Assembly: GCF_000429685.1 (NCBI RefSeq)
Contig: NZ_AUCI01000012.1
Span: 62,001 to 126,000 of the forward strand
DNA from: Salibacterium aidingense DSM 18341
GTDB lineage: Bacteria; Bacillota; Bacilli; Bacillales; Marinococcaceae
Direction of reading: 5' to 3'
Length of the DNA stretch: 64,000 nucleotides
This document shows, one piece after another, positions 11,790 to 50,569 of this stretch; the first letter of the stretch is position 1, and each line of letters starts with the position of its first letter. The position numbers and the translations under genes are program-made. Under the pieces are notes generated by a model. That model had not been told where the DNA came from. It saw only the letters and a list, made by a program, of their open reading frames with translations, and made no database searches.

Positions 11790-11824
11790 CTAAAAAAATT
11801 CCCGCCCTTATAACATCGGGCGGG
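11790..11824 (-). terminator. intra-operon terminator/attenuator after the pilin gene
   Basis: On the minus strand a 7-bp perfect GC stem, CCCGCCC-gatgttataa-GGGCGGG, is followed at once by AATTTTTTT. It sits between the VirB2-like pilin and the VirB3-like gene. It would give more pilin than channel transcript unless an antiterminator suppresses it. The NusG-like protein encoded upstream is a candidate for that role. Confidence 0.75.
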
Positions 11825-11831
11825 TTACACA

Positions 11832-12221: not shown

Positions 12222-12322
12222 GAAACCACCTCCTTTCTAAATATTCAACTTCCTCACTCATAGAAGAACATCATAATATCAAGCAGTAGCACCTCCTCTG
12301 CAAAGTTCAAAGCTTCTTCATC

Positions 12323-12853
12323 CTAAATTTGAGACAATAAAAGAAGGCTATTTGCTGCAATAAGCAAGATAGCCACAATGTTTTCAGATATATTCCATTC
12401 ATGCGGGCGTTTCGTCCGAGCTGTCACGATAAATCGATATTTTCGCTTTTGAAAAGGATAGAAAAGCGGCACACCACCATCAAAAAAATAGTCTCCTACC
12501 ACATGTGACAATACCCCGATTGCTAAGGCTGAACATAAGTACCATTCCCAATCAAGAAAAGCCCCGACCATCCATCCTGTAATAAATGTTAAGCAAACAA
12601 ACATCAAAGAATGGGACCAAGTACGATGGCCAAACAACCAATTGAGCGGAAAGCTGATAAAAAAGAATGGAAAGCGTCCACCCAGCTTGGAACGAGGTGT
12701 ATCTAAATCAGGGAGTAGTGAACCAAAAACAATCAGTCCGTAGAAAAGCAATACATGGTTCAGAGCATCCGCAGTCAGTGTGAATAAATTAAACAGGGTC
12801 ATCGTGCAAATCCCAAAGAGAACACCGGTTAATTGGTGCGTTGTAGCAGTCAT
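12323..12853 (-). CDS. YdjM-like membrane metal-dependent hydrolase (DUF457)
   Basis: 176 residues with four or five membrane segments. Motifs LPDLDTPRSK, GHRTWSHSL and SHVVGDYF supply the conserved Asp/His set of the LexA-regulated YdjM family (predicted membrane-bound metal-dependent hydrolase). Residues after GVPLFYPF match the family end. AAGGAGGGG lies just before the ATG. It leads the T4SS transcription unit after the terminator at 13088-13123. Its role in a transfer operon is unclear; phospholipid or wall-precursor hydrolysis is conceivable but not shown. Confidence 0.75.
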   Translation of the reverse strand: MTATTHQLTGVLFGICTMTLFNLFTLTADALNHVLLFYGLIVFGSLLPDLDTPRSKLGGRFPFFFISFPLNWLFGHRTWSHSLMFVCLTFITGWMVGAFLDWEWYLCSALAIGVLSHVVGDYFFDGGVPLFYPFQKRKYRFIVTARTKRPHEWNISENIVAILLIAANSLLLLSQI

Positions 12854-12967
12854 TTCACCCCTCCTTCTAAAAAACGTTAAATGTGTTTTGATGACGTCGC
12901 AGTAGCATCAAAATAAATATCAATTCATCCCGTTCAAATTCATCAGCAAATGACCGCCTATATTTTG

Positions 12968-12985
12968 GACAATCATCCTATTGTC
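12968..12985. promoter_or_regulatory. inverted repeat in the likely T4SS promoter region
   Basis: GACAAT-catcct-ATTGTC is a perfect 6-bp inverted repeat in the middle of the 234-bp gap between the DUF457 gene and the terminator of the upstream unit. No clear sigma-A promoter was recognised in the gap. The repeat could be an operator, or a hairpin in a leader. Nothing else was seen from 12854 to 13087. Confidence 0.3.
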
Positions 12986-13087
12986 ATGGGAATGAGAAGG
13001 GTTGACACCTTGGGTTATCATTAATTTTGTCCAAGAGACACTGTTTTTCTGATACATTGAGCATTTTTGTCGCTCCTTTACATAAAT

Positions 13088-13123
13088 AAAACAGCAATGC
13101 CCGAATAAACGGCATTGCTGTTT
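13088..13123 (-). terminator. terminator separating the regulatory genes from the T4SS operon
   Basis: AAACAGCAATGCC and GGCATTGCTGTTT form a 13-bp perfect stem just beyond the stop codon at 13131, with TTATTTATG after it on the minus strand. It should end transcripts from the NusG-like gene cluster unless antitermination occurs. Confidence 0.7.
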
Positions 13124-13130
13124 AATTGTT

Positions 13131-13385
13131 TTATTTCAACGCGAGTAAACGTCCCTGCACGTTATACCACAGATCAATTTTCTTTTCAGCTGCAGCTTTG
13201 GCATCGTCGATGCTTAAATATCCTTCTCGTGATTCCGTAAATGAGAAATGTTTTAACTCAAATTTATAGGTGCCAGTTTCACTATCTTCTGTAATAAGAC
13301 CATGGACATTATGTTTTTTAAAACGCCATTGAGTTGTTGCAAATAGCGGCACACCATCTAATATTACCGGAGTTAGTTCCACCAT
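13131..13385 (-). CDS. hypothetical protein, promoter-embedded start
   Basis: The frame is open from 13466 (111 codons), but the stretch 13427-13455 contains TTGTAA-17 nt-TATAAT, a good sigma-A promoter overlapping the first codons. TAAGGAG (13389-13395) then lies just before the in-frame ATG at 13383-13385. I therefore prefer the 84-residue product starting MVELTPVILDGVPLF. The longer version would add a CPEC motif. The body (WRFKKHNVHGLITEDSETGTYKFELKHFSF, SIDDAKAAAEKKIDLWYN) looks like a small mixed alpha/beta domain of no family I know. It is the last gene of the NusG-like cluster. Confidence 0.55.
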   Translation of the reverse strand: MVELTPVILDGVPLFATTQWRFKKHNVHGLITEDSETGTYKFELKHFSFTESREGYLSIDDAKAAAEKKIDLWYNVQGRLLALK

Positions 13386-13426
13386 ATCTCTCCTTATCAA
13401 ATACGAGACACACTCCGGACAAATCA

Positions 13427-13455
13427 TTTTGTCAAAGTATGTCCACATTATACTA
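13427..13455 (-). promoter_or_regulatory. sigma-A promoter inside the long version of the 13131 gene
   Basis: On the minus strand TTGTAA, a 17-nt spacer and TATAAT overlap codons 1-7 of the longest reading frame. This argues for a downstream start and for separate expression of this gene. Confidence 0.45.
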
Positions 13456-13505
13456 TGATATTCCATCTATTACAATAATTAGTTATTAATTATCTTAAAT
13501 TGGTG

Positions 13506-13799
13506 TTAAATGCTTTGTTCATAAGCCTTTATAGCCTGGGTATGGCGGTGTTTCAATGCAGAACGTTGCGCTAATTCTCTAAAATATGCTCGTTTTTGCA
13601 AATCCATCGACCAAAGTTCAGCTGTTTCAGCCGCCGTACTCTCGTCAATATATGCTGAACCCTCTAAAGCGTCTAAAACAGAATATAGTGTAGCAGGAGT
13701 CACTTTATAATAAGCCTGACCAACATTATTTGTATAAACAGGGGCTTCTAGTATCTTTCGTTCAAGCTCATGGCGAATGGAAAACGACTGTTCAATCAT
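13506..13799 (-). CDS. hypothetical protein coupled to the NusG-like gene
   Basis: 97 residues starting MIEQSFSIRHELERKILEAPV. It is predicted helical, with AYYKVTPATLYSVLDALEGSAYIDESTAAETAELWSMD in the middle. The start overlaps the stop of the NusG-like gene (ATGA), so translation is coupled. No known motif. Its conserved coupling suggests a partner or modulator of the regulator (inference). Confidence 0.6.
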   Translation of the reverse strand: MIEQSFSIRHELERKILEAPVYTNNVGQAYYKVTPATLYSVLDALEGSAYIDESTAAETAELWSMDLQKRAYFRELAQRSALKHRHTQAIKAYEQSI

Positions 13800-14584
13800 G
13801 ATACTCCCCCCCTTGACTGAACATACGTTTTCATATAAGTGTACAAATATTCCAATAAAATCTTTGGTGATTTTAATGCGTTGTTTAACTGTTGCGAGGT
13901 ACCCTCTTTTTGATGGTATGATAATGCTTGTACCATAAACGTATGAGGAAGGTACAAACTCAACCTATCCCCCTCTTTTTTTTGATTAATCTCATAATAT
14001 AGCTGAGCGAAAATATGGTGCCCTTTTTCTTTACCCTTTTGGATCAAGCGCTCTATCTTCTCCACCACACACGTCGGTTCTTTTAATTCTTGCTGCAACA
14101 AGGCTTCTGCATATTCCCGGTGTCCTTGATTATCAGCACCATTCACTTCCTTCAGGCGTTCCTTTTTATTCCGTTCATGGACTTTATTCGCTTCAATGAT
14201 AACGTGAGCATCTTCTTCTTCGTTATCTATATCCAAGCCGGATTTTTGGCAGAACGTCCTTACTTCTTCTTCCGGAATATCTGTAGTTAAAATTTGAGAT
14301 ACAAAGGGTATACGTTTAAAAAAATGGTAAAATTCATTTTTAAAACTTGGCAAATTGCTGTCCCTGTTATCGATATACGAAGAATTCACTTTAATAAAAA
14401 CATATCCCATAGATGTTTTACGGTTTTCACGAACCGGTACGCCACCGTTTATCTTCGTTTCAACAATAGCAGGAGAAATGATTTTTTGAATAGCTTCTAG
14501 TATCCAATGATGATCCATACTTTGAATAAACTGTTCTAAAGCATTTTCATGCCCACTTCTGCACTGAATCGCAAAGTAACTCAA
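13796..14584 (-). CDS. NusG-family (NGN domain) specialised elongation regulator, LoaP/RfaH-like
   Basis: 262 residues from a TTG preceded by AGAGAGGA. The first 125 residues match the NGN fold of NusG. SYFAIQCRSGHENALEQFI is the opening strand-helix, KTSMGYVFIKV corresponds to the FPGYVFV signature, FFKRIPFVSQIL to the VPGV region, and DIPEEEV to the usual PLTEEEV helix. There is no KOW domain; residues 125-262 are helical and charged. Specialised NusG paralogues bind RNA polymerase and suppress pausing and termination in long operons. It lies upstream of the T4SS operon, which is separated by one terminator and contains another. Family call fairly sure, function inferred. Confidence 0.7.
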   Translation of the reverse strand: MSYFAIQCRSGHENALEQFIQSMDHHWILEAIQKIISPAIVETKINGGVPVRENRKTSMGYVFIKVNSSYIDNRDSNLPSFKNEFYHFFKRIPFVSQILTTDIPEEEVRTFCQKSGLDIDNEEEDAHVIIEANKVHERNKKERLKEVNGADNQGHREYAEALLQQELKEPTCVVEKIERLIQKGKEKGHHIFAQLYYEINQKKEGDRLSLYLPHTFMVQALSYHQKEGTSQQLNNALKSPKILLEYLYTYMKTYVQSRGGVS

Positions 14585-14608
14585 AATGAATTCCTCTCTT
14601 TTTATAAC

Positions 14609-14653
14609 TTAAAAATTATATTTTCAACCCTATATTCTTTTTAAGTTTATGAT
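14609..14653. promoter_or_regulatory. AT-rich upstream region of the NusG-like gene with TAAGTTT sites
   Basis: Contains AACTTAAAAATTATATTTTC and TAAGTTTATGATAAAAT. The TAAGTTT core is shared with at least three sites in the divergent regulator promoter region (15449-15679), suggesting that one of the XRE proteins also controls this promoter. No textbook -35/-10 pair is certain. Confidence 0.4.
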
Positions 14654-14704
14654 AAAATTAAGCTTAGGGTGCCTTGTTCTACAACATGTTAAACTAAACG
14701 TCAA

Positions 14705-15151
14705 CTATGTAATATGCTTCCGTACATGTTCGCGGGCTTTCTTTTTTACCTTGTGAAAGGTATCTTCATATAAAGCTTTGGCATACTGCTTGGAATAGCC
14801 AAAAGCTTCAGCTGCATAATTATAGTTCTGTTTATCTTGATATACAGTAAGAAATAGGGCCTTAGCGTTGTCATCAATGTCCAGCTGTTGAAACCAAAGC
14901 TGGTCATCGATTTTTTCGCCACGTCGATCGCCAATTTCTTGCAGTTGTCGTTGCAGCTCATTCACCATGACTTGTAGTTTTTTATTACGGGCTTTTTTCA
15001 CCATCTCTTCTTTGGACAAAGAAGGGCTTAAAAATTGTGTTGCCTCGACTTCTTCCGGAAGCATTTGCTCTTTTAATTTTCTGATTTGAAGTTTTAACTC
15101 TTCGGTGTGCTCAATCCAGGTCGTTTCAGGTTTCATGGGAATAGATGACAC
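14705..15151 (-). CDS. hypothetical regulator-like protein, helical with C-terminal HTH-like end
   Basis: 148 residues if the GTG at 15149-15151 is used; the in-frame ATG at 15134-15136 (MKPETTWIEHTEELK) is an alternative start. Coiled-coil-like heptads occupy about residues 15-70. The end (NAKALFLTVYQDKQNYNYAAEAFGYSKQYAKALYEDTFHKVKKKAREHVRK) resembles a sigma-region-4 or terminase-small-subunit type HTH with a basic recognition helix. It lies between the XRE gene and the NusG-like gene. I do not recognise the family; a small DNA-binding protein controlling transfer genes is my guess. Confidence 0.6.
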   Translation of the reverse strand: MSSIPMKPETTWIEHTEELKLQIRKLKEQMLPEEVEATQFLSPSLSKEEMVKKARNKKLQVMVNELQRQLQEIGDRRGEKIDDQLWFQQLDIDDNAKALFLTVYQDKQNYNYAAEAFGYSKQYAKALYEDTFHKVKKKAREHVRKHIT

Positions 15152-21625: not shown

Positions 21626-22771
21626 CTATGACTTAATTGAGTCTTTGATGAGTTCATTGTTTTTCTCCCAGATAGCTTGTGCTTCATCGTGTGTGTAATG
21701 GTACTCTTTCATATATGAGGTAAACTTATCCTCCAAGAACCACACTGGGAGGGTTTCATTTGTTTTTGAGGTGCGAATGAATTCGAGGATGCGTTTTTTG
21801 GTCAAAAAGTTGTCCGCAGCTATATTCTGCGTGGACTTTTCGAATTCTTTCTTCCTGGTCTTGAGAATGGTCGTTATGTACGCATCGATGCGGGTGACTG
21901 TACGATTGTTAGTGTAAATATCCTGTAGGACATATTCCAATTCTTCTATTCCATAAATAGTCCACGTCTTCAACACACGGTTCGGTATTTCATACCCGTA
22001 CTCTTTAATAAGAGGACGGGCTTTATCAAGGAATTTTTTAATCTCTTCTTCTTTGACGTCTTCTTCCATGGAAATTGTATCTGTCATCTTGATGTTGAAT
22101 TCAATCTTTTCCACCCGTCTGCCTTGCTTTACCTCTTGGAAATCAAACGTTAGTAGATTAATGTCATTAAGTTCTTCCTGTGCTTTCAATAAGACGCGAG
22201 ACTTAAAATGACCATATTGTTTGTATTTATCCCCCACTCCCAGATGTTCTTTTAATTTATCAATTTGGAAAGTTCGCTTTTGGATTTTTACATATTGTTG
22301 CAAGAGCTCAAAGAGTCGTATCGTGTAAGGGCTCTGCATATGCCCAATCGTTGGAAAATCATATTTGGTATAACGACCCTGTTCTGTTAGATTAATCAGA
22401 TACGGTTCAATTACGTCATTGAATTGGATATGTACCATGCCATCTCGATAGACAATTCCTTTAAACCAAGGGAACCAACCGACTTGGGATTCTGTTTTTA
22501 TCATGATCCGCTTTTTCGTCAACTCACTTGCGATTTTGTTCACCCTGGCATAATAGCCATTTCCGGTAAGACCTGCTGCTTTGATAAATTCAGCGACAGT
22601 AAAAGATACATTAGGAAAATGCTCCGGTGATTTAACGATCTTACCGGCAGCATATCGAATAATCTTGTGCTCGGTTGCTGTTAGATCGTCTTCGTATATC
22701 GCTTCCACCAAATCATTAGATTGGTAGACTTGCATGCGTTTTTCAGCATTCTTTTTAGATAAATTTGTCAT
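21626..22771 (-). CDS. Rep_3 family plasmid replication initiator
   Basis: 381 residues. It begins with the Rep_3 (RepB/RepE-type) pattern: VYQSNDLVEAIYEDDLTATEHKIIRYAAGKIV, then VSFTVAEFIKAAGLTGNGYYARVNKIASELTKKRIMIK (first winged helix). SPYTIRLFELLQQYVKIQKRTFQIDKLKEHLGVGDKYKQYGHFKSRVLLKAQEELN is the second winged helix that contacts iterons. Residues 250-381 form an extra helical region. It sits immediately beside an 11-copy iteron array (22850-23214), the arrangement of theta-replicating iteron plasmids. Initiators of this kind bind iterons as monomers, melt the origin and repress themselves as dimers. Confidence 0.9.
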   Translation of the reverse strand: MTNLSKKNAEKRMQVYQSNDLVEAIYEDDLTATEHKIIRYAAGKIVKSPEHFPNVSFTVAEFIKAAGLTGNGYYARVNKIASELTKKRIMIKTESQVGWFPWFKGIVYRDGMVHIQFNDVIEPYLINLTEQGRYTKYDFPTIGHMQSPYTIRLFELLQQYVKIQKRTFQIDKLKEHLGVGDKYKQYGHFKSRVLLKAQEELNDINLLTFDFQEVKQGRRVEKIEFNIKMTDTISMEEDVKEEEIKKFLDKARPLIKEYGYEIPNRVLKTWTIYGIEELEYVLQDIYTNNRTVTRIDAYITTILKTRKKEFEKSTQNIAADNFLTKKRILEFIRTSKTNETLPVWFLEDKFTSYMKEYHYTHDEAQAIWEKNNELIKDSIKS

Positions 22772-24281: not shown

Positions 24282-24611
24282 TCATTGATGTAGTAAGTCC
24301 ATGATTTTTTCTTTTAATGGCGGAAGCTCTTTTTCAACCACATTCCAGACGATGTCATTGTCTACGCCGAAATAGTCATGAATTAACACGTTTCGGATGT
24401 CTGTCATCTCACGCCAAGGCACATGTAAGTGTTGATTTCGAAAGTTTTTGGAAATACGCTTTGCCGCTTCCCCCATAATTTCTAAATTACGAATCACTGC
24501 GTCTTGTACCAATTTAGAACGAAAAAAGTCTTCCTCCCCATTTGGAAGATACGTTTCAATGTTTTCTATGCACTCTAAAATATGAGTCAGATAAAGGTTG
24601 TCATCATTCAT
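24282..24611 (-). CDS. hepT: HepT-like ribonuclease toxin (DUF86)
   Basis: 109 residues, all helical. The HEPN catalytic motif R-x4-H-x-Y is present as RNVLIHDY (about 80-87). Its start overlaps the stop of the MntA gene by 4 bases. HepT is the HEPN toxin of the MntA-HepT toxin-antitoxin systems, in which the nucleotidyltransferase antitoxin modifies the Tyr of this motif. It probably helps keep the plasmid. Confidence 0.88.
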   Translation of the reverse strand: MNDDNLYLTHILECIENIETYLPNGEEDFFRSKLVQDAVIRNLEIMGEAAKRISKNFRNQHLHVPWREMTDIRNVLIHDYFGVDNDIVWNVVEKELPPLKEKIMDLLHQ

Positions 24612-28487: not shown

Positions 28488-29411
28488 ATGGGCGAATTGA
28501 TATTTCTTTTAGTCATCACATATCTTATTGGGTGGTCATTATTTTGGAGTTTCAAAAATGGCAAGAAATTCTATCATTATTTGCTAGAGGCACACAAAGA
28601 CAAAAAAGATTTTTGTCCCCATGGTATTTCTAAGGGGGCTTCAGAAAATAAATGTATAAAGTGTACAAAAAAGAAAGAAAGAATACTTCAAAAACAGAAA
28701 ATAAAAGAAAATTCCGAACAATTATACCAAGAAGAAATGAAAAAGTTGTTAAAACAAATGAGAAAAAGCACTAAATATCTCCAAAGTCTCTCTCCGCAAG
28801 ACTTTGAAAATGTAGTAAGCGATATGTTTAGAGAACTAGGATATACTGTCAACCAAACTCCTTACATCAATGATGGAGGAAAAGACGCTATTGCCTGGAA
28901 AAATCAAAAAAAGTACCTTTTTGAATATAAAAGACACCATCAAAACAATACAATCGGCCGCCCTATGCTTCAAAAATTTTATGCTGCTATGATAGAAGAA
29001 GGTACAGACAAAGGTTTTTTTATTACTACAAGCCGTTTTACACCATCAGCTATTAATTATAGCGCAAAATATAACATCACCTTAATAGACGGCCACCGGT
29101 TAAGAGAACTGTTTGAAAAGGTCTATCCTTCTTCAAAAAATCAGAGCTATCAAGTAATGTGTGAACAATGTGGTGATATTGTCTTCTTTACGAAACTTGC
29201 TCACACAGAGCACACGCGATGTAAAAACAACCATATAGTCTATTGCAATATCACTCCACCCTCTCTTCTAAATAAAAAGGTACAATCCATTAGACAATGT
29301 CCATTATGCGGTTACAAATTAAAACGAAGAAGGGGGCGATATGGAAGCTTCTATGGTTGTGTGCGATATCCTCTTTGTCGCTATACTGAAAAGTCAAACA
29401 ACAGCAGTTAA
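28488..29411 (+). CDS. membrane-anchored Mrr-like restriction endonuclease with zinc ribbon
   Basis: 307 residues; AAAAGGAG 6 nt before the ATG. A membrane span (residues 4-22) is followed by a CPHG...CIKC cluster and a coiled region. The Mrr_cat (PD-(D/E)xK) domain spans about 103-212: LSPQDFENVVSDMFRELGYTVNQTPYINDGGKDAIAW has the catalytic Asp in GGKD, and YLFEYKRH holds the ExK pair; SRFTPSAINYS and ITLIDGHRL complete the fold. The C-terminus ends with a topoisomerase-type zinc ribbon (CPLCGYKLKRRRG, CVRYPLCRYT). Such enzymes cut foreign or modified DNA; membrane tethering is known in some. No methylase is adjacent. Confidence 0.82.
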   Translation: MGELIFLLVITYLIGWSLFWSFKNGKKFYHYLLEAHKDKKDFCPHGISKGASENKCIKCTKKKERILQKQKIKENSEQLYQEEMKKLLKQMRKSTKYLQSLSPQDFENVVSDMFRELGYTVNQTPYINDGGKDAIAWKNQKKYLFEYKRHHQNNTIGRPMLQKFYAAMIEEGTDKGFFITTSRFTPSAINYSAKYNITLIDGHRLRELFEKVYPSSKNQSYQVMCEQCGDIVFFTKLAHTEHTRCKNNHIVYCNITPPSLLNKKVQSIRQCPLCGYKLKRRRGRYGSFYGCVRYPLCRYTEKSNNSS

Positions 29412-31013: not shown

Positions 31014-31772
31014 ATGCAATTAAGAGGCGGCATGGCTGGCATAAATTCGGTCTCCTTTATTTCAGACCATTATTCAGCAACAACGGTTAATGAAAAAAAC
31101 AGCTCCATTGTATATATTATGGAAACAGAAAACACGCCCCGTTTCATCCAAGCATTAAAGCAGTGGCCATTTATTCGAGCATATGCTCTTTTCATTCATA
31201 TGTTCATCGTCAAAAAACAGTTGGCACTGATCATGCTTCTCCTATTTGGAATATTGACCATGTTGAACGCAGCTCTGGATGATACCACTGTTAATAGTGT
31301 TCTTCACTCGGTGTCCATCCACCCGCTGCTTTTTTGTGCTATGGTCGTGGGATCCGCAGGTATTTTGATACGTTTTACGCCGATCGGAAAGTATCATGCA
31401 GCTGAGCATATGGCTGCTAATGCCTACGAACATTCCGGTGATATGAAACTTGAAAACGTCAAACGGCATTCCCGTGTCCATTCTCATTGCGGCACCAATA
31501 TTGTTATGATCTTTTTTGTGACATTCACCCTTTTGTATGGTATTTTTGGATACAATCCAGGAACGATCTTTCTAGCTTGGGGCATCGCTTACGAATTAAA
31601 GGAGAACGAGGAACGTATCCCCTATCTCATGAGACCATTAATGTATCTTGGTTATGCCACTCAATACGTCCTATTCACATCAAAACCAAAGGATAAGCAC
31701 GTGGAAGCTGCCATAAAAACAATTTCTTCTTTAGAGAAAGAAGAAAATAGCTACGTTCAACAACTTGGATGA
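31014..31772 (+). CDS. DUF1385/YqhQ-like membrane protein, copy 1
   Basis: 252 residues. The start MQLRGGMAGINSVSFISDHYSATTVNEKN matches the GGQAVIEGVM-type opening of YqhQ. KQWPFIRAYALFIHMF matches KLPFIRG. The signature PIGKYHAAEHMAANAYEHSGDMKLENVKRHSRVHSHCGTN carries the conserved His/Glu/Cys set of a predicted metal-binding membrane enzyme. Three or four membrane spans are visible (about 65-85, 98-116, 160-190). Function unknown in the family. A second copy lies at 32871 just before cas12f. Confidence 0.78.
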   Translation: MQLRGGMAGINSVSFISDHYSATTVNEKNSSIVYIMETENTPRFIQALKQWPFIRAYALFIHMFIVKKQLALIMLLLFGILTMLNAALDDTTVNSVLHSVSIHPLLFCAMVVGSAGILIRFTPIGKYHAAEHMAANAYEHSGDMKLENVKRHSRVHSHCGTNIVMIFFVTFTLLYGIFGYNPGTIFLAWGIAYELKENEERIPYLMRPLMYLGYATQYVLFTSKPKDKHVEAAIKTISSLEKEENSYVQQLG

Positions 31773-32870: not shown

Positions 32871-33617
32871 ATGCAATTAAAAGGCGGAATTGCAGGCATG
32901 CATTCGGTATCGTTTTATTCGGACCGTTATGCTGCCACCACAGTGAACAAAAAACAAGCTACCAACGTGTATGTAAACAAAAGGGAACAGGGCCCCCGTT
33001 TTCTAGAAAATATTATGAAGTGGCCGTTTATTCGTGCCTATGCCCTATTTCTTTATGTTTTTCTTATCAAACGAAAAATGATAATTACAGTGCTGCTGTC
33101 CTATGTCTTGATTATCTTTCTAAACATTTCCCGGGAAGACAACAGCATGAATCATATGGTTCTTCCGGAAACAATCTCCCCGCTCCTCTTTTTGGCCCTC
33201 CTATTAGGGGGAGCTGCTTTTGTGATCCGTTTAACACCAATCGGGAAATACCATGCCGCTGAACATATGGCCGCTAATGCATACGGCCATTCCGGTGATC
33301 TGCGGCTGGAGAACGTAAAGCAGTATTCCCGTATCTCTAGGTATTGTGGCACCAACCTCGTAATTCTTTTTCTTATCGTTTTCACTATCCTATATATGAT
33401 TTTTGGTTTTCACGTCGGCATTGCTTTTTTTGCTTGGGGAATGACTTATGAAATGCGGCAGTACGACCAATATTTGAGCTACATCATCACCCCGATATAT
33501 TATGTCGGTTATGCTGCGCAATACCTTTTGTTTACGTCTAAACCAAACGACAAGCATCTGCAAGCAGCTATTAAAGCCATTCAAGCATTAGAAAAACAGG
33601 AGAGTACCACGGACTAA
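32871..33617 (+). CDS. DUF1385/YqhQ-like membrane protein, copy 2, upstream of cas12f
   Basis: 248 residues and clearly a paralogue of the 31014 product. It has the same opening (MQLKGGIAGMHSVSFYSDRYAATTVNKKQ), WPFIRAYALFLYVF and the signature PIGKYHAAEHMAANAYGHSGDLRLENVKQYSRISRYCGTN. One change is visible: HSHCGTN becomes SRYCGTN, losing a His of the conserved H.xCGT motif, so copy 2 may have altered metal binding. It ends 21 bp before cas12f with no terminator between, so the two are probably co-transcribed. Confidence 0.78.
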   Translation: MQLKGGIAGMHSVSFYSDRYAATTVNKKQATNVYVNKREQGPRFLENIMKWPFIRAYALFLYVFLIKRKMIITVLLSYVLIIFLNISREDNSMNHMVLPETISPLLFLALLLGGAAFVIRLTPIGKYHAAEHMAANAYGHSGDLRLENVKQYSRISRYCGTNLVILFLIVFTILYMIFGFHVGIAFFAWGMTYEMRQYDQYLSYIITPIYYVGYAAQYLLFTSKPNDKHLQAAIKAIQALEKQESTTD

Positions 33618-33638: not shown

Positions 33639-34913
33639 ATGAAAAAAACGGTCCGCTTACAGATCGTTAAACCGATGGATGAAGATTGGGAAATACTAGG
33701 GAGGGTCCTGCACGATATCCGTTATCAAACCAGGCAGGTTCTCAATAAAACCATTCAGCTTTGCTGGGAATACTCCAATTTTTCATCGGAATATAAAGCT
33801 TTGCACGGGGATTACCCTAAAAATAAAGAGATTCTTCATTACACAAGCATGCATGGATATGCTTATAATCAGCTCAAAGAACAGTATTACTATATCCAAA
33901 GTGGAAATTGTTCTCAGACTGTTAAACGAGCCGTAGACAAATGGAAGTCAGATTTGAAGGAAATCCTCCGTGGTGATCGGTCGATTCCCAGTTATAAAAA
34001 GGATATTCCCATCGATATTGTCAAAGATGCGGTTTCTCTCGAACACGACGAGAAAAATGGAAACTATATCGCAACCCTCAGCCTCATGAGCACGGCTTAC
34101 CGAAAAGAAATGGAGCGGAAATCCGGCCAATTTCGTGTTCTTCTTCATTCTGGCGATAACAGCAAAAAAACCATCTTAAAACGACTAGTTCAAGGAGAAT
34201 ACCAGCATACGGCCTCTCAAATCGTAAAAAAGGGGAAAAAGTGGTTTTTAAACCTGTCGTACAAATTCGATGTGCTCCAAACCCCGTTTCAAACAGAACG
34301 AGTCATGGGCGTAGATATGGGGGTTATTTACCCCATCTATATGGCATTCAATTATCATGACCATTTACGCTACAAGATTCAGGGCGGTGAAATTGAAAGG
34401 TTTCGGCGGCAGGTGGAAAGCAGAAAAAAAGCACTGCAGGATCAGGGAAAATATGCCGGCAGCGGACGTGTAGGACACGGTACAAAAACACGAATTGACC
34501 CGCTTGAAGTTATTCGAGACAAAATAGCCAATTTCCGGGAAACCAAAAACCATCATTATTCCCGTTATGTCGTGGATATGGCCGAAAAACATGAGTGTGC
34601 CACAATACAATTGGAAGAACTCAAGGGTATTCATCAGGACGATGCTTTCTTAAAAAGATGGTCCTATCATGACCTTCAGGAAAAAATAACGTACAAAGCA
34701 GAAGAGAAAGGAATTCAGGTCATAAAAGTAGACCCTCAAAAGACTTCTCAGCGTTGTCATCATTGTGGTAACATAGACAGCAATAATAGAAAAGAACAGG
34801 CCTCTTTTCTGTGCACCTCATGTGGGATGGAAACGAATGCTGACTTCAATGCAGCAAAAAACATTTCAATACCAGGTATTGAACAAATCATACAAACCGA
34901 GATGAAAAGTTAA
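33639..34913 (+). CDS. cas12f: Cas12f (type V-F) miniature RNA-guided nuclease
   Basis: 424 residues. It resembles the 422-aa Cas12f1 of Acidibacillus sulfuroxidans along its length (my recollection of that sequence): KPMDEDWEIL, HGDYPKNKEIL, MHGYAYNQLK, ILRGDRSIPSYKKDIP in the REC/WED part, then GGEIERFRRQVESRKK, QGKYAGSGR and IRDKIANFRETKNHHYSRYVVDMA. RuvC residues are D226 (MGVDMGV), E326 (IQLEEL) and D402 (NADFNAAKN); the zinc finger is C373, C376, C392 and C395. A TnpB of an IS605 element is the main alternative, but TnpBs lack these Cas12f-specific segments, and here a tracrRNA-like region and repeats follow at once. It acts as a dimer with crRNA-tracrRNA to cut DNA. No cas1, cas2 or cas4 in the window. 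Confidence 0.9.
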   Translation: MKKTVRLQIVKPMDEDWEILGRVLHDIRYQTRQVLNKTIQLCWEYSNFSSEYKALHGDYPKNKEILHYTSMHGYAYNQLKEQYYYIQSGNCSQTVKRAVDKWKSDLKEILRGDRSIPSYKKDIPIDIVKDAVSLEHDEKNGNYIATLSLMSTAYRKEMERKSGQFRVLLHSGDNSKKTILKRLVQGEYQHTASQIVKKGKKWFLNLSYKFDVLQTPFQTERVMGVDMGVIYPIYMAFNYHDHLRYKIQGGEIERFRRQVESRKKALQDQGKYAGSGRVGHGTKTRIDPLEVIRDKIANFRETKNHHYSRYVVDMAEKHECATIQLEELKGIHQDDAFLKRWSYHDLQEKITYKAEEKGIQVIKVDPQKTSQRCHHCGNIDSNNRKEQASFLCTSCGMETNADFNAAKNISIPGIEQIIQTEMKS

Positions 34914-34917
34914 ATTT

Positions 34918-35070
34918 ATTGGGCGCTTTCTCGCCCATAAAACGAGAAGTACCGCTCACAGTGGCGGCAACACTCGTGAAGGTAGTCCCATCGTTTCGGG
35001 TGGGCTGAAATCTCAGTCACAAAAACCGACTGAGGAACCCTTGCAACTACATATTTGGTAGATGTAAAAC
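34918..35070 (+). ncRNA. tracrRNA of the Cas12f system
   Basis: Begins just after the cas12f stop. The order resembles the known Cas12f1 scaffold: a first hairpin GGGCG-ctttct-CGCCC, then ATAAAACGAGAAGTACC, a stem closed by CGAG/CTCG, AAGGTAGTCCC paired with GGGTGGG, CTGAAA, and a hairpin CTCAGTC-acaaaaac-CGACTGAGG. The anti-repeat is in two parts: AACCCTT (35036-35042) pairs with AAGGGTT of the repeat, and GGTAGATGTAAAAC (35057-35070) pairs with GTTTTCATCTTACC but for small mismatches. The promoter may be that of cas12f or internal; the 3-prime end is not known. Confidence 0.82.
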
Positions 35071-35071
35071 T

Positions 35072-35115
35072 GTCGTCGACCTTCAGTAGCGTAAATACCC
35101 CGGCGGGTCGACGAC
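35072..35115 (+). repeat. perfect 10-bp inverted repeat between tracrRNA and CRISPR array
   Basis: GTCGTCGACC (35072-35081) and GGTCGACGAC (35106-35115), loop of 24 nt containing TACCCCGG. It would form a strong hairpin right after the anti-repeat. It has no T tract after it, so it is not a simple terminator. It could be a tracrRNA 3-prime structure, an RNase III-like processing site, or an isolated repeat of another CRISPR type. Confidence 0.6.
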
Positions 35116-35213
35116 ATCAAAAGCCTTGGATTCACGGGGATGGATAAAAAAGCTGGAGCAAACCCTGTAACTCTACCACAATATACAACCCTGTCACATC
35201 AGCTTTTGCTGGG

Positions 35214-35367
35214 GTTTTCATCTTACCTATAAGGGTTTGAAACGCAAGGCAAAAGGTGGGAAACCTGCGGATAAGAGTGTTGTTTTCATCTTACCTATAA
35301 GGGTTTGAAACACGGATAGATTGGATGCTCAAGAACAATATTATAGGTTTTCATCTTACCTATGAGG
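35214..35367 (+). CRISPR. minimal CRISPR array: two identical 30-nt repeats, two spacers, one degenerate terminal repeat
   Basis: Repeat 1 (35214-35243) and repeat 2 (35282-35311) are identical, starting GTTTTCATCTTACC and ending AAGGGTTTGAAAC. Spacer 1 is 38 nt (35244-35281), spacer 2 is 35 nt (35312-35346). Repeat 3 (35347-35367) keeps the first 14 bases but then reads TATGAGG and runs into the ligase stop codon at 35369. Degeneration at the downstream end places the leader on the tracrRNA side, so the array reads in the cas12f direction. Repeat ends match the anti-repeat of the tracrRNA. Confidence 0.9.
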
Positions 35368-35368
35368 T

Positions 35369-36220
35369 TCACAAAGCAAAACTTTTGAAAACAGGAAGCC
35401 TTAACTTTCCAGAGGATGTTATATTTCTATATTTTACTTTCACTTTCAGAGGATTAATCATGATGAAATCATGATCCTCAACAATAATGTTTTGATTTGC
35501 TATACGATAAAAAGCAGCCCTACTTTTTGGATCTATTCCAAGTTCCAGGAGGCCAGCCTCTTTGCCATTTTCATACATGAGGAGCCATCCCGTTTGATCT
35601 TTTCGGTACCCGCTAATATACACTTCTGTTTGCTGATAATTGATGACTTTTATCCATGAAGAAGAGCGGAAGTTACATATGTATTTGGCGTGCTTATCTT
35701 TTTGAACAATGCCCTCTAGACCTCTTTCTTGGACCTGATCAAACAGTTCTGGCCCCTTCTCTTCCAAATAGGCCACCTTACAAAGCACGTCATTATTTTC
35801 CGGAATCACATGGGATAATAACATTTTACGTTCGATGAGTGTTAAATCAGTTACCCAGCGATTTTCATATTTTAGAAGATCAAAGGCCACAAAGGTAACA
35901 GGATAGCTGCTGCGCATTTTAGCTATTTTTGAAGCATTTGTGAACTGAAATCGCTTCATTACCCATTCGAAATCAGGAAAACCCCGATTATCGGTCACTA
36001 CCAGCTCTCCATCCAATATTGTATTGTCGGGGATATCAATGGCTAATAGTTCCGGGAATCGTGAGGTTACTTCAACCTGGTGCCTTGTATATAATAATAT
36101 TTTATCTTTCTGTTTTATTAAAATCAGCCGAATGCCGTCCAGTTTCAGCTCTGAAAAATATCGGTTATCTTTTATAGGAACATTGTTTTCTGCTTTATGT
36201 AGCAACATTGGTTGTATCAC
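35369..36220 (-). CDS. stand-alone ATP-dependent DNA ligase (LigD ligase-domain type)
   Basis: 283 residues from the GTG at 36218-36220, about 10 nt after AGGAG; the GTG at 36229 overlaps that site. Motif I is ELKLDGIR with the adenylated Lys (K26), then DGELV (motif III), FVAFDLL (IIIa), EGIVQK (IV) and WIKVI (V). An OB domain follows. It lacks the polymerase and phosphoesterase domains of full LigD, but its sequence type and the adjacent Ku gene mark it as an NHEJ ligase. The stop codon touches the last CRISPR repeat, so the two units are tail to tail. Confidence 0.9.
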   Translation of the reverse strand: MIQPMLLHKAENNVPIKDNRYFSELKLDGIRLILIKQKDKILLYTRHQVEVTSRFPELLAIDIPDNTILDGELVVTDNRGFPDFEWVMKRFQFTNASKIAKMRSSYPVTFVAFDLLKYENRWVTDLTLIERKMLLSHVIPENNDVLCKVAYLEEKGPELFDQVQERGLEGIVQKDKHAKYICNFRSSSWIKVINYQQTEVYISGYRKDQTGWLLMYENGKEAGLLELGIDPKSRAAFYRIANQNIIVEDHDFIMINPLKVKVKYRNITSSGKLRLPVFKSFAL

Positions 36221-36284
36221 GTTCTTCACACTCCTGGTTGCATTATATCAGCAGGAGATGCAATAAAGGAGATGTAATGATTGG

Positions 36285-36313
36285 AAAAACCGCTCTCCAC
36301 CTTTGAGCGGTTT
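36285..36313 (-). terminator. terminator of ku
   Basis: AAACCGCTC and GAGCGGTTT form a perfect stem overlapping the ku stop codon; TTTTTCC follows on the minus strand. ku and the ligase gene are therefore separate units or coupled only by read-through. Confidence 0.7.
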
Positions 36314-37136
36314 ACGTTGCCTTTTTTGCCTTCTTTTTCCTTTCTTCTTCCTGATGGTGGGTACTCTTTTCTTTGTCTATACTGGCCTGCAATGCCTCCA
36401 TTAAATCATTAATGTCTTCCTTCTCTTTATCACCCGAAGTAATCACATCTTGTTCCTTTTCCAGCTTATCTTGAATCAATTCATGTAAAGAGAGTCTGAC
36501 TGCATCGGTGTAATGATTTGGATTGAATTCTGTTGTCAGCTGCTTTATTAATGTCTCTGCGGTTTCTACTTCTTTGTCTGTTAAATCAATGTTTCCGGGT
36601 AAGTTGGGTATGTCATTAATCTCCCTAACCTCATCCGGATAAAAGATGGTTTCCATGATTAATGCTTTTTTGATAACACGAATGACAGCTAAATGTTCTT
36701 TGGATCGTATGGTTACCTTGGCCACCGCGATTTTCTTTGTTTTTTTAATGGAGTCACGTAACAATGCATAGGCTTTGACTCCCGCCTCATTCGGCCCGAT
36801 AAAATACGTTTTATCGTAATACATAGGGTCAATGTCGCTTAACCTCACAAAATCGAGAACTTCGATACTGTTTTGCTTACTCTCCCTGTTTACTTGATTG
36901 AGCTCGCGATCATTAATTTTTATAAACTTTCCCTCTCCATACTCATATGCCTTCTCAATATCATTATTGGAGACTTCTTCCCGACAGTTAGGGCAGTATT
37001 TTTGATATTGAATGGGGGTTCCGCATTCTTCATGTATGTTACGAAACGAAATATTTTTATTTTCTGTGGCTGCGTGCAACTTGATAGGTATACTAACAAG
37101 ACCAAACTGGATATGCCCCTTCCAAATGGTGTGCAA
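36312..37136 (-). CDS. ku: Ku-type DNA end-binding protein (NHEJ)
   Basis: 274 residues from a TTG after AGGAAGGG. The start MHTIWKGHIQFGLVSIPIKLHAATENKNISFRNIH is the Ku beta-barrel opening; CGTPIQYQKYCPNC, EVLDFVRLSDIDPMYYDKTYFIGP and NHYTDAVRLSLHELIQDKLEKE follow as in bacterial Ku. The tail is lysine-rich (EEERKKKAKKAT). Ku homodimers bind broken DNA ends and recruit the ligase encoded next to it. Confidence 0.95.
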   Translation of the reverse strand: MHTIWKGHIQFGLVSIPIKLHAATENKNISFRNIHEECGTPIQYQKYCPNCREEVSNNDIEKAYEYGEGKFIKINDRELNQVNRESKQNSIEVLDFVRLSDIDPMYYDKTYFIGPNEAGVKAYALLRDSIKKTKKIAVAKVTIRSKEHLAVIRVIKKALIMETIFYPDEVREINDIPNLPGNIDLTDKEVETAETLIKQLTTEFNPNHYTDAVRLSLHELIQDKLEKEQDVITSGDKEKEDINDLMEALQASIDKEKSTHHQEEERKKKAKKAT

Positions 37137-40709: not shown

Positions 40710-43700
40710 TCACAATAATGGAAATCCCCCCTCTTTAGTAATTATTTCATCAATTTCTACAATGATTTTACTACTATCAATAATCATAGCAATTAAATGC
40801 TGAAGATGTTTAAGCTCAATATATTCTAGCTTTCTGCCATCTCTAACCTTTAACCACTTGGAAAGCAATTGATACCCACCAACCATATGCTCCCACGCTT
40901 CAATTGGTACGTTCTCCAAAAATTGTTTTTCATTTAACCACAACTGTCCTTTTGCATCGTCAGAATACTTAAATTTGATAGCGTTATGATCAACCACATT
41001 CGTTCCTTCGACTGGAAAGTTTGTTTTTAAACTAGGTTCATATTCAAGTAATAGAACACGTGTTAAATCTTTCCCTTTTTTACACAGATTTAAGAATAAA
41101 GTGGGGTTTGATGTAATTTGGATGTGTGGATAATCGCGAGTCAATTCCTCTGCATATCGTTCCTTGTAAAGTGTTGACGATAAAATAGAAATCAAATAAC
41201 CAAAAATATCAATTGGATCTATTCGACTTTGCTCTTTGTTATCTTTTTTTTCATCATCTATGTTGGAGCATTTTTTATCAACTACTAGTCGTGTTTTTTG
41301 TTCAAGCGTTTTGATAAAATTAGGAGAAAAATTCACTTCTGTTCGAGAATTTTTTGTATTTTTAAATAAAAGTGGAAAAATATAAGAGCGGTTTGATGAG
41401 TTATCAGAAAGTGTTATGGAATCAATTATGTGTCGACTAACCAGCAGGTGATTGAAAGACTCTCCTTTTGTTAACCTGGTTGTAACCAAAGCAATATTAT
41501 CATCACGTTCAATCATGTTTCTCATAGTTTTAGCTCTCGGCATGCACAAAAAGCCTCTACTCTTGCCAGTATAATAGGTATACCGAATATCATATGGACG
41601 GTAATGTATAGGTACAATATTTTCATCACTTTGTCCTGTATTAATTATGTCTTCTTGGGCCAGGTGAACTTTCCAGTCTCTAACATCTCTAGACAAGTCA
41701 AAGTGGTCTCTTGCTTCCTCTGGTGTTAGATTAACAAAAGTAGATATTGTGTCCATAACATCTTCAGTATTCCAATGAATAGTAAAACGATCTCTCGCCG
41801 TTACAATGCCTGTCGAGTGCACTGGCATTGCCTCGGTTATACTAACTCCTCTTTCATAATATTCATTGGTGTATGAAGAGAGTTGTGGAGAAAAGTAGTA
41901 AAATGGTTTTTTAGGTTTTAATTTTGTCCAAAATAAACTTTTAATGTCATTTGTATTAAGCCATTCATACTTCTCTTCTCTGCTCCCCCACATCTCTGTG
42001 TGATAAACGCGTGTTATTTTTCTCCTATTATCCCTCTTAATAAATAGACTAATTGCAATGCCCGTCCTAATGTCAAATATATTTTGATCGTTGGTTGAAA
42101 TACCCTCTTTTTTGTTTGCGTTGCCATGTAAGTCAATAACGTATAGATCATCAAAGGTCTTCATAAGACTTTCACGCATCCCTCTGAAAGTTGGATTATC
42201 CAAAAAACCGTGTGGGGTAATAAAAACCACCACCCCATACCCTCGTTGTGCAATTTTCCACTGAGCAAACCGTAAGAATTTCACGTAATCATCGTTTAAC
42301 CATTTCGGATTGCGTTCTCCTAATGGCTGGCCATCTACTTTAAAATAAGACTCAACAACTTTTTCAGTGGTTTCATCAAAACCCCGCATCAATTGTTTCA
42401 TCCATTCTATATCATTAGCAGAATCACCTGAATATGGTGGGTTCCCAATAATAGCCATAATAGGTTCATTACTTTTAATTTTATTTGCCGACTCAGCTTC
42501 ACCTGCTATAAATTGACTCATAAATAAGGGATTGTTGGTTTCACCAGGTTTATCTAGGGTATTGGTGAGAAAAACACGAAGTCGATTGTCTTGATCACTA
42601 CCTTCAAAGTTATAACCTGTCTGCTTAAGTTTTAAGTCTAACTTCATGTGGGCTATGGTGTAAGAAGCCATTAAAAGCTCGAAACCATAAAGTCTCGGGA
42701 GTAAATTGTTTCTTACATAACCTGACCATAAACCTTGGTTATTCTTAAATGAGTCTTTATAGATATGGTCGATAATTTTATGAAGAAAGGTACCAGTACC
42801 AACTGCTGGATCAAGTATCTGAACTTTAGGTATATAATATTTTCTAGTTTGGTTTTTACTAATGATTTCTTCTCTAGTAATGGTTTGGCTAGTATCAGCT
42901 AAGCCTTCGTATAAATCAAAATCGTTTTTTAAAATTTTATCTAAACTCCGTACCATGAAACTGACCGCAGCCGTTGGTGTGTAATACACGCCGCGAGTAG
43001 TTCTCTCTTCAGGTTTGTAAAAATTAAGAAATGTTTCATAAAAGTGAATCATAGGATCTTCTTTTATAGAGTCAAACTCTTTAAGAATATTTCGAACATC
43101 AGTGTTTTTTAAAAGCTGAATCACTTCATCAACTATCCATATTAAAGAATCGTTAAGGGATGGGCCGGCCAAATGATTAAATAGTTCACGTAAGAAGGGG
43201 TTTGTCTTTGGAATTAAAAATCCTGCTTTTTCTCTGGTGAAGGCATCTTCAATAACATTTAAACGAGCTGAAAATAACCCATATACAATAGTCTGAGCAT
43301 ACATATCTGCAAATTCGATAGGTGTCAAGGTGTGCATTACAGTTTGTTTCAGTGTTTCATACTGCCTCATGAGATTTTTGTCACGATTAGAACCTTTTAC
43401 AAATGTTTTATCAATAACTTCATAGATTAGTTTTGCCATAGCTGCCATCCGTTCTGCTAATTCTTTTGAAGAATTCACGGTAGAAGAAGATTGATTATAG
43501 AAGTTTTTCAACATTTCTATAAAACTACTTAAACCTTCTGTTTTTATTTGAATAGTATAGTTAGGTTGAAGAATTCCTAATGAAACAGTTTTACGATGCT
43601 CTCCTCTAACGTACCATCTAAATTCAATATAATTTGTTAGAATAAAATTTTCTAATCCATTTAAGTAACGTGATATTTGTTCTGTTCTTTCTACATCGTC

Positions 43701-43931
43701 TAATGAGGTACTAATATCCTTGGTTTCAATATAGCCTATAGGAATGTAACCATCTGAGATAAGGAAATCAGGCATTCCTATATTTTGTCGTTTAGGTTCA
43801 TTTATAGCGGAGATTCCGTGAAAAGCGTCAAGTAATTGCTTTATTGCAGGACGAAAAGTATGCTCAGTGGAACGTCTAGATTTTGCTTCGTGGGATATAG
43901 ATTTAAGATACTTTCGGATTTCTGACTTCAA
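40710..43931 (-). CDS. type IIG-like restriction-modification enzyme (fused nuclease and N6-adenine methyltransferase)
   Basis: 1073 residues from a TTG 7 nt after GGGAGGG. The N-terminal nuclease has a PD-(D/E)xK pattern: P54-D55 in MPDFLISDG and E69-T-K71 in YIETKD. A helical connector leads to the methyltransferase: TRGVYYTPTAAVSFMV, motif I DPAVGTG (374-380), and motif IV NPPY (497-500). The C-terminal half (about 650-1073) should hold the target recognition part. No helicase motifs are present, so it is unlike the LlaBIII/type ISP proteins with a translocase, and a type IIG or Eco57I-like enzyme is preferred. It is flanked by integrase remnants, suggesting mobility. Confidence 0.85.
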   Translation of the reverse strand: MKSEIRKYLKSISHEAKSRRSTEHTFRPAIKQLLDAFHGISAINEPKRQNIGMPDFLISDGYIPIGYIETKDISTSLDDVERTEQISRYLNGLENFILTNYIEFRWYVRGEHRKTVSLGILQPNYTIQIKTEGLSSFIEMLKNFYNQSSSTVNSSKELAERMAAMAKLIYEVIDKTFVKGSNRDKNLMRQYETLKQTVMHTLTPIEFADMYAQTIVYGLFSARLNVIEDAFTREKAGFLIPKTNPFLRELFNHLAGPSLNDSLIWIVDEVIQLLKNTDVRNILKEFDSIKEDPMIHFYETFLNFYKPEERTTRGVYYTPTAAVSFMVRSLDKILKNDFDLYEGLADTSQTITREEIISKNQTRKYYIPKVQILDPAVGTGTFLHKIIDHIYKDSFKNNQGLWSGYVRNNLLPRLYGFELLMASYTIAHMKLDLKLKQTGYNFEGSDQDNRLRVFLTNTLDKPGETNNPLFMSQFIAGEAESANKIKSNEPIMAIIGNPPYSGDSANDIEWMKQLMRGFDETTEKVVESYFKVDGQPLGERNPKWLNDDYVKFLRFAQWKIAQRGYGVVVFITPHGFLDNPTFRGMRESLMKTFDDLYVIDLHGNANKKEGISTNDQNIFDIRTGIAISLFIKRDNRRKITRVYHTEMWGSREEKYEWLNTNDIKSLFWTKLKPKKPFYYFSPQLSSYTNEYYERGVSITEAMPVHSTGIVTARDRFTIHWNTEDVMDTISTFVNLTPEEARDHFDLSRDVRDWKVHLAQEDIINTGQSDENIVPIHYRPYDIRYTYYTGKSRGFLCMPRAKTMRNMIERDDNIALVTTRLTKGESFNHLLVSRHIIDSITLSDNSSNRSYIFPLLFKNTKNSRTEVNFSPNFIKTLEQKTRLVVDKKCSNIDDEKKDNKEQSRIDPIDIFGYLISILSSTLYKERYAEELTRDYPHIQITSNPTLFLNLCKKGKDLTRVLLLEYEPSLKTNFPVEGTNVVDHNAIKFKYSDDAKGQLWLNEKQFLENVPIEAWEHMVGGYQLLSKWLKVRDGRKLEYIELKHLQHLIAMIIDSSKIIVEIDEIITKEGGFPLL

Positions 43932-49777: not shown

Positions 49778-50569
49778 ATGGGACATACCATAAGCTTTGG
49801 TTTGCAAAAAGGAGGCGTAGGTAAAACAACCTCTGCAAGTATTACTAGTTACCTTCTAGCTGAATATTATAATTATAAGGTGTTAGCAATTGACTTTGAT
49901 AGCCAAGGCAACATGACTTTATTTTTAACACAACAAAACATCTATGATTTTCATGAATATACCATTCTGGAAGCAATGAAAGAAAAGAATGCTGAAAAAT
50001 ATATTCATAGAATAACGGACAACCTTCACATTATACCTGCTGAGGATTATCTCATTACTATAAATAGATATCTTCATACCACTTATAGAGGTAAAGGTGA
50101 TCCATCTCAATTGCTAAAAGAAATATTAGAACCTATTAAACATGATTATGACTATATTGTTATCGATTTACCACCCAATTTAGGAGACCAAACCATTAAC
50201 GGCCTTACCGCTTCCGATTATACCGTCGTTGTTTTACAAAGCGACCCTTTAAGTTATGATGCATTAGATCGATACATGGATTTCCTTAATGGAGTAAAAG
50301 AACATACTAATCCTGACTTATACTTAGCAGGTATTTTGACCACAATGTTAGATAGCCGCGTAGTATTAGACTCAACAATATTAGATTCTGTTAAGGAAGT
50401 GTATGACGATATTGTTTTTAACAGTATTATTAAAAGACGAAGTAGAATTAAAGAATTTTCAAATACAGGAATCTCCCATTCCACTAAAAACGATCAGGAA
50501 GTTTTAGAACCTTATATTGTTTTTGTAAAAGAACTACTTGATACGATTAATACTACTAATAATTCCTGA
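49778..50569 (+). CDS. parA: ParA/Soj plasmid partition ATPase
   Basis: 263 residues. The deviant Walker A KGGVGKTT (residues about 10-17), DFDSQGNMT, and IVIDLPPNLGDQT are all intact. There is no N-terminal HTH, which marks it as type Ib-like. It forms ATP-dependent gradients on nucleoid DNA to segregate plasmids. GGAAGGGG precedes the ATG. The small gene that follows 16 bp later should be its partner. Confidence 0.92.
   Translation: MGHTISFGLQKGGVGKTTSASITSYLLAEYYNYKVLAIDFDSQGNMTLFLTQQNIYDFHEYTILEAMKEKNAEKYIHRITDNLHIIPAEDYLITINRYLHTTYRGKGDPSQLLKEILEPIKHDYDYIVIDLPPNLGDQTINGLTASDYTVVVLQSDPLSYDALDRYMDFLNGVKEHTNPDLYLAGILTTMLDSRVVLDSTILDSVKEVYDDIVFNSIIKRRSRIKEFSNTGISHSTKNDQEVLEPYIVFVKELLDTINTTNNS

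Follow-up and report, generated by a model that had tools for sequence, protein, structure and literature searches.

The DNA analysed here, referred to as the window, is a stretch of 64,000 nucleotides from the salt-loving bacterium Salibacterium aidingense DSM 18341 (positions 62,001 to 126,000 of contig C11, NZ_AUCI01000012.1; the contig measures 128,388 bp, in a genome of 4.42 Mb and 55 contigs). It carries a compact CRISPR (clustered regularly interspaced short palindromic repeats) locus in which a cas12f1 gene is followed by a trans-activating CRISPR RNA (tracrRNA), a leader and a short array. AsCas12f1, encoded at locus L019 of Sulfoacidibacillus thermotolerans Y002 (PDB 7wju, 8j12), serves as the point of comparison. 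The features of the locus are the following, in window coordinates:

33639..34913 (+), cas12f1: 424 aa, uninterrupted open reading frame (ORF) with RuvC triad D226/E326/D402 and a C4 zinc ribbon
34914..35033 (+), tracrRNA core: contains five stems that co-vary and has a homologue in the region behind AsCas12f1 (L019)
35034..35071 (+), tracrRNA anti-repeat: 22 predicted pairs with the repeat, in two blocks, -20.6 kcal/mol
35072..35115 (+), leader hairpin: common to I-B-family arrays of Bacilli; match to covariance model R1 at 35067-35120, E 8e-8
35116..35213 (+), rest of the leader: its end, ..CTTTTGCTGGG, fits I-B-family leader ends, rank 10 of 127,946 positions
35214..35243 (+), repeat 1: 30 nt, perfect, type I-B family
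35244..35281 (+), spacer 1: 38 nt, no target found
35282..35311 (+), repeat 2: identical to repeat 1
35312..35346 (+), spacer 2: 35 nt, no target found
35347..35376 (+), terminal repeat: degenerate, 80% identical, distal end of the array

An earlier note on this DNA had described a 1.7-kb interference unit. Gene, tracrRNA and array are all present, but the array extends to 35376 and exceeds the limit given there by nine bases. The most telling part was missed: judged by their sequence, the array and its leader are of the type I-B kind. The combination of a compact effector homologous to Cas12f1, a RuvC triad with a C4 ribbon, and a predicted tracrRNA whose anti-repeat lies beside the array supports classification of the locus as a plasmid-borne type V-F1 interference unit.

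The 424-aa protein has an intact reading frame, with the three RuvC acids and all four zinc-ribbon cysteines (C373, C376, C392 and C395) in place, as the earlier note had stated. Its assignment to the Cas12f family, also made there, was confirmed by the PADLOC Cas12f model (E 8.6e-146), the Pfam Cas12f1-like_TNB domain (E 1.7e-23) and the best PDB matches (E 4.6e-148, residues 2-421), which are titled transposase or OrfB and which we take to be chains of AsCas12f1. The protein also passed the guided_TnpB model of NCBI (178.1 bits, cut-off 100), so that automatic naming of the effector as TnpB is likely; the warning that such a gene is easily annotated as an IS605 transposase was justified. The ratio of nonsynonymous to synonymous substitution rates (dN/dS) was 0.11 over the 184 codons common to the window gene and the truncated copy of Salibacterium qingdaonense, the nearest named relative in the same genus (genome G002; cas12f locus L022, NZ_FOTY01000006.1). 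By comparison of coding sequences, cas12f1 is shown to be conserved under selection and to have kept its catalytic residues.

A protein tree of 47 rows, from which ten loci with truncated or frame-broken genes were excluded, was the check that the earlier note had proposed. The window protein was placed outside the TnpB clades, in an 11-row group with AsCas12f1 whose support (90/89) is under the strict threshold. Row L019 is AsCas12f1 or nearly so, since 422 of 422 residues matched 7wju (E 1e-287). Five rows bear a transposase annotation (two named TnpB family, one located beside tnpA, two unverified); four of these were placed outside Cas12f, and the remaining one, L262, forms a long branch within Cas12f whose position is unsure.

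The tracrRNA begins directly at the stop codon of cas12f1, where the earlier note had located it. In alignment A3, which comprises eight loci chosen by us, 93.9% of 212 cells were paired and two-sided changes occurred in 17 of 27 pairs, the five-stem structure having been predicted on the same alignment as was used for this test. None of 500 shuffles was as good, and slid controls were 29-40% paired. Loci L018 and L045 of alignment A2 were omitted from A3, and L017, misaligned in A2, is represented by its upstream tracrRNA instead. The number of promoter-like sites matched shuffle background (2 versus 1.3 expected); 2 terminator-like sites were found versus 0.5 expected.

The pairing of array repeat and tracrRNA announced by the earlier note was recovered (22 predicted pairs), with a z score of -2.2 relative to shuffled repeats in the window; the duplex clearly beat shuffled repeats in L022, L019 and L015 as well (z -2.2 to -3.1 for the four loci). 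In L015 the best anti-repeat lies behind the hairpin, 205-236 nt past the gene (z -2.4 versus 0.0 before the hairpin), and the same stretch occurs in L045. The homologous anti-repeat of S. qingdaonense pairs with its own repeat (21 pairs, -19.9 kcal/mol). The repeats of the two Salibacterium loci differ at positions 6, 16, 17 and 18. At positions 6 and 18, which are base-paired in either locus, the tracrRNA carries the compensating change (C-G to A-U and A-U to G-C); position 17 forms a G-U pair in the window only. When partners were swapped, the window tracrRNA with the S. qingdaonense repeat gave -18.5 kcal/mol and the reverse combination -14.6 kcal/mol. For the window anti-repeat, pairing is also predicted with four common I-B-family repeats (-11.2 to -14.8 kcal/mol, versus -20.6 for its own), whereas the anti-repeats of four other loci of the AsCas12f1 group reach only -3.3 to -7.7 kcal/mol with one I-B-family repeat.

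The window repeat, GTTTTCATCTTACCTATAAGGGTTTGAAAC, belongs to the I-B repeat family of Bacilli. Its best identity among 16 family repeats was 28 of 30, versus a maximum of 18 in 500 shuffles, this nearest repeat (G111) coming from a locus without a tested cas type. With the typed I-B loci L089, L090, L091, L260 and L259, the window repeat shares 27, 25, 25, 23 and 19 of 30 bases, respectively. All ten proteins scanned at L089, L090 and L091 scored best with I-B models (Cas8b, Cas7b, Cas5b, Cas3b and Cas1b). Repeats of the family pattern (at most 1 mismatch) occur in 12 of 398 Bacilli genomes, this one included, and Cas1 is present in 10 of the 11 others. Among 29 genomes of the taxonomic family to which S. 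aidingense belongs, the repeat (at most 2 mismatches) was found in this genome and in S. qingdaonense. Weak I-B likeness (18/30) was seen in the repeats of L019 and L046. Rfam CRISPR-DR2 matched both perfect repeats above the gathering score, on the minus strand. The repeat of the Cas12f array resembles a sequence near Cas1 of the same genome in Clostridium brassicae (L040/L253, 24/30) and in Syntrophomonas palmitatica (L039/L248, 26/32); no such likeness was found for L018 and L036. Array borrowing may have occurred more than once in Cas12f loci.

The leader begins with a hairpin, GTCGTCGAYC..GGATCGACGAC, that lies between tracrRNA or gene and array in ten AsCas12f1-like loci; the same hairpin precedes I-B-family arrays of Bacilli. 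Its distance to the first repeat is 98 nt in the window, 96-100 nt in nine AsCas12f1-like loci and 87 nt in L019. Covariance model R1 was built from nine leaders of arrays with an I-B-family repeat, namely, four from typed I-B loci (L071 and L089 of one genome, L073 and L090), four from untyped genome arrays and one from a Geobacillus plasmid. R1 matched nine of the ten AsCas12f1-like loci at E <=0.004 (the window, L022, L019, L016, L017 twice, L046, L047, L015 and L045) and L020 weakly (E 0.37); no match at E <=1 was obtained in the 42 other Cas12f-type loci. In the S. aidingense genome, the window site was the sole significant match (E 5e-7), the next different site having an E value of 0.97. 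Matches at E <=0.001 were present in 60 of 398 Bacilli genomes. Among the best 30 loci (30 genomes), a family-repeat array lay 99-155 nt downstream in 23, and three more were recognised by repeat pattern; six of these 26 were training sites, leaving 20 of 24 after their removal. The remaining four (L224, L230, L241 and L243) showed no downstream repeat. In contrast to the tracrRNA stems, none of the 11 predicted hairpin pairs changes on both sides, a pattern suggestive of a sequence-specific binder.

The hairpin was considered as an IS605 end or as a part of the guide RNA, and these options were dropped as first choice once it had been seen in I-B-family leaders. A viral scan with a tight pattern for its loop gave no match; a loose palindrome pattern gave more than 119 unspecific viral matches and was abandoned. 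In Croceifilum oryzae (L017:4577-6500) the order is tracrRNA and hairpin, degenerate repeat, cas12f, second hairpin at the gene end, and array; the gene seems to be set inside a duplicated leader. The Geobacillus plasmids pGt35 and pJS1-2 (L214:5839-6300 and L215:5695-6300) hold arrays with an I-B-family repeat and the leader hairpin, with no cas genes annotated beside them in the stretches examined, up to 6 kb on either side.

The opposite end of the leader was evaluated with a weight matrix derived from 31 family arrays, mostly untyped; it covered their final 28 leader bases, with hairpin and repeat excluded, and each junction was given the highest score among three positions around the border. 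The matrix ranked the junction first in L022, L016, L046 and L047, 10th of 127,946 positions in the window and 12th in L020; for twelve junctions of other Cas12f loci the ranks were 129-14,763. Thus, the window leader has both a hairpin and an end of the I-B type.

Adaptation genes of the matching type exist in relatives. Among six other host genomes of AsCas12f1-like loci, S. thermotolerans and A. danicus have two intact Cas1 genes each. Both hold an I-B operon (Cas8b, Cas7b and Cas3b typed, plus Cas1b in S. thermotolerans) with the R1 hairpin ahead of its array; the other Cas1 locus of each genome (I-C and a further Cas8b type, respectively) has no such hairpin. Closely related loci differ in spacer content. 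The locus of Anoxybacillus caldiproteolyticus (L016) and that of a viral contig (L047) are 98.3% identical over gene, tracrRNA and leader and, of the five spacers read in each, have none in common; L015 and L045 are 93.8% identical, and none of their two and one spacers is common. Near-identical loci with different spacers indicate that spacers are exchanged. The fourth spacer of L047 (6787-6822) matches phages of Geobacillus thermodenitrificans, with 34 of 36 bases in NIIg9.7 and TTTA 5' of the protospacer, and two other phages over 32 of 32 aligned bases, the first bases being different; the L016 array gave no match to phages.

Plasmid location, claimed by the earlier note, was borne out by three genes found by Pfam scan, which mark the contig as a plasmid:

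21626-22771, Rep3 initiator
49778-50569, ParA
8543-10537, TraG/VirB4-like ATPase

The 128,388-bp contig has no terminal overlap that would show it to be circular.

Taken together, the locus is probably a complete V-F1 module of the AsCas12f1 kind, on a plasmid and with an array of the I-B kind, whose spacers would be loaded in trans by type I-B Cas1-Cas2. Since the I-B-family repeat is accompanied by the same leader hairpin and leader end, the module would have captured, or grown onto, a type I-B array. By analogy with characterised relatives, Cas12f1 would bind the pair of CRISPR RNA (crRNA) and tracrRNA and cut double-stranded DNA beside a 5' protospacer-adjacent motif (PAM): Cas12f1 relatives cut such DNA with a 5' T- or C-rich PAM (PMC7229846), and a Cas12f1 dimer is bound to one guide (PMC8548392). 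The tracrRNA anti-repeat fits this I-B-kind repeat by sequence, and new spacers would be inserted by the I-B Cas1-Cas2 of a host that has it, so that the locus could do without cas1. In the present host, with a split cas1 only, no spacers would be added to the memory before the plasmid moves on. Because the hairpin also precedes the array of AsCas12f1 itself, this type of leader is apparently typical of most AsCas12f1-group members; Salibacterium would have either kept or newly taken the I-B repeat.

A number of observations weigh against this interpretation. Cas1 in this genome consists of two pieces on opposite strands of another contig (C25:757-4108, L010), in agreement with the earlier statement that the window holds no cas1 (of the three adaptation genes named there, cas1 was the one searched for). 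With a short Csd2-like ORF and a Cas3-like ORF seen there by eye, these pieces may be what is left of a rearranged type I-C system, or else a product of faulty assembly. Cas8b had no match in this genome or in any of four Salibacterium genomes; it was matched in 2 of 29 genomes of the family. Since this genome gave no Cas8b match and only a split Cas1, the locus was classed as V-F1 with an I-B-like array and not as a I-B system. No Cas1 was found in four of the six other hosts (A. caldiproteolyticus, C. oryzae, Aneurinibacillus sp. and S. qingdaonense), and the I-B partner is therefore absent from most present hosts. The cas12f gene of S. qingdaonense has lost its N-terminal half. The hairpin is missing from L018 and L048, two members of the 11-row tree group, and the nine R1 matches represent fewer independent cases because L016/L047 and L015/L045 are near-duplicates. 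The leader-end fit is weak in L015, L045, L017 and L019 (ranks 86-186), and these four overlap the controls, the best of which (L021) ranks 129. Significant I-B likeness is missing from the repeats of L015, L016/L047, L017 and L045 and present in that of control L040, outside the AsCas12f1 group (20/30). The anti-repeat duplex is no better than shuffles in L016, L046, L020 and L017 (z -0.7 to 0.2, part before the hairpin), and, at -18.5 kcal/mol versus -19.9 and -20.6, one direction of the Salibacterium swap is nearly as good as the native pairs. Finally, neither window spacer has a known protospacer in the phage, plasmid and viral-contig searches, the first two of which the earlier note had asked for. 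The best E values were 1 for phages and 0.3 for plasmids, the Geobacillus rows being taken for arrays with similar repeats (such as those of L214 and L215). One viral contig per spacer was matched by the first 18 nt, but full-length agreement (23/38 and 21/35) was taken as chance. The first 25 nt of spacer 1 have no second occurrence in the genome at up to 3 mismatches; the in-genome comparison of spacer 2 covered contig C11 and the first 20 kb of C25.

An alternative is a plain V-F1 system in which the hairpin acts in transcription or RNA processing (parting tracrRNA from pre-crRNA, or forming part of the promoter region), has no role in spacer acquisition and resembles I-B by common leader descent only. 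The hairpin could serve such a function: it stands at the 3' foot of the tracrRNA, right after the anti-repeat, and the 169-nt tracrRNA of AsCas12f1, which is encoded between gene and array (PMC8548392), may reach it, since 163 nt separate stop codon and hairpin in L019. We consider this explanation unlikely, because the same hairpin precedes I-B-family arrays, which need no tracrRNA, because its pairs do not co-vary as the tracrRNA stems do, and because I-B arrays also have the leader end in common with six of ten loci and the repeat in common with Salibacterium. The presence of only two spacers, the lack of an intact cas1 among the matches and the truncated gene of the sister species would also fit a decaying remnant, in which a once active nuclease is left with a dead array and dead adaptation and loss of the locus is in progress, as in S. 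qingdaonense; with an intact window gene, catalytic residues kept, a dN/dS of 0.11, and an anti-repeat and repeat that still match, decay is quite improbable.

An IS605-type TnpB with its omega RNA beside an unrelated array would account for the guided_TnpB match. This reading conflicts with the AsCas12f1 group membership by tree and PDB match and with the tracrRNA and its anti-repeat. No IS200/IS605 TnpA was found in the 39 window proteins scanned with Pfam (a partial scan of the 75 ORFs of at least 100 aa listed; IS605 ends were not searched for), and we regard the TnpB reading as nearly refuted, with a very small residual probability. An extension of the preferred reading, loading in trans by I-B Cas1-Cas2, is put forward tentatively and with some doubt: the AsCas12f1 group as a whole might be a parasite of type I-B immunity, consisting of mobile effector-tracrRNA modules that live on I-B arrays and are loaded by I-B Cas1-Cas2, and that in Salibacterium, given its I-B-kind repeat, may in addition convert host I-B array transcripts into guides for Cas12f1.

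Among known systems, the AsCas12f1 locus shares with the window the protein family, protein size (422 versus 424 aa), fold and place of the tracrRNA, order of gene, tracrRNA and array, and leader hairpin; it differs by a protein identity of 53% (tblastn), by a repeat of the form GTTTGCGAGC..GTGTGAAC instead of the I-B-family repeat, and by a host that also holds I-B and I-C systems, whereas the window module is on a plasmid. Type I-B arrays of Bacilli with TTACCTATGAGGAATTGAAAC-type repeats (L089, L090 and L091) share repeat family, leader hairpin, leader end and spacer length, but the window genome has no Cas8b match and offers Cas12f1 and a tracrRNA instead. In S. qingdaonense (L022), tracrRNA, hairpin, leader and I-B-like repeat are conserved despite the truncated gene, one different spacer and other neighbours. 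Plasmid type IV-A3 is likewise a plasmid-borne effector without an adaptation module that leans on another CRISPR type, acquiring spacers in trans with the host type I-E machinery; it is a class 1 effector acting by transcriptional repression, and acquisition, inferred for the window, was demonstrated there (PMC11656645). In-trans adaptation is a general proposal for mobile CRISPR systems (PMC9071438). V-U/V-F loci without adaptation modules and spacer differences between close V-U loci were already known (PMC6452270), and Cas14a-like genes have been reported beside partial I-B loci in Clostridium novyi sensu lato (PMC8473940). The earlier suggestion that plasmid-carried Cas12f is uncommon did not hold, as V-F is described as a notable exception among class 2 systems on plasmids (PMC9071438). 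What appears new relative to the literature found is the I-B-like repeat and leader on a V-F1 array, V-F on plasmids and adaptation-free loci being known. Among open-licence PMC papers, we found no report of a Cas12f locus with a leader or repeat of type I-B and no explanation of how natural AsCas12f1-type loci gain spacers without cas1 and cas2.

Several other genes surround the locus. A ligase-domain protein adjoining a Ku protein (35369-37136, -) is convergent with the array, and two DUF1385 proteins (31014-31772 and 32871-33617, +; 52% mutual identity) lie upstream, the second gene stopping 21 bases before cas12f1. A link between Cas12f and the Ku, ligase and DUF1385 genes was rejected, as no homologue was found in 52 Cas12f-type loci tested with flanks of up to 5 kb (except L014). 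Further defence-type genes on the plasmid encode a Type IIG restriction-methylation enzyme (40710-43931, -), a Mrr-type nuclease (28488-29411, +) and a HepT-like protein (24282-24611, -).

AsCas12f1-type nucleases are used as miniature editors. The array of the I-B kind suggests how such mini-systems, which lack acquisition genes, obtain new spacers. The leader hairpin is sharply conserved, being matched in 60 of 398 Bacilli genomes, and no earlier description of it was found in open-licence PMC papers. The anti-repeat of the tracrRNA is predicted to be the part that adapts when the module moves onto another array. The shared I-B-like leader and, in the window, the shared repeat make a direct test of spacer supply possible, and they name the enzymes that would provide it.

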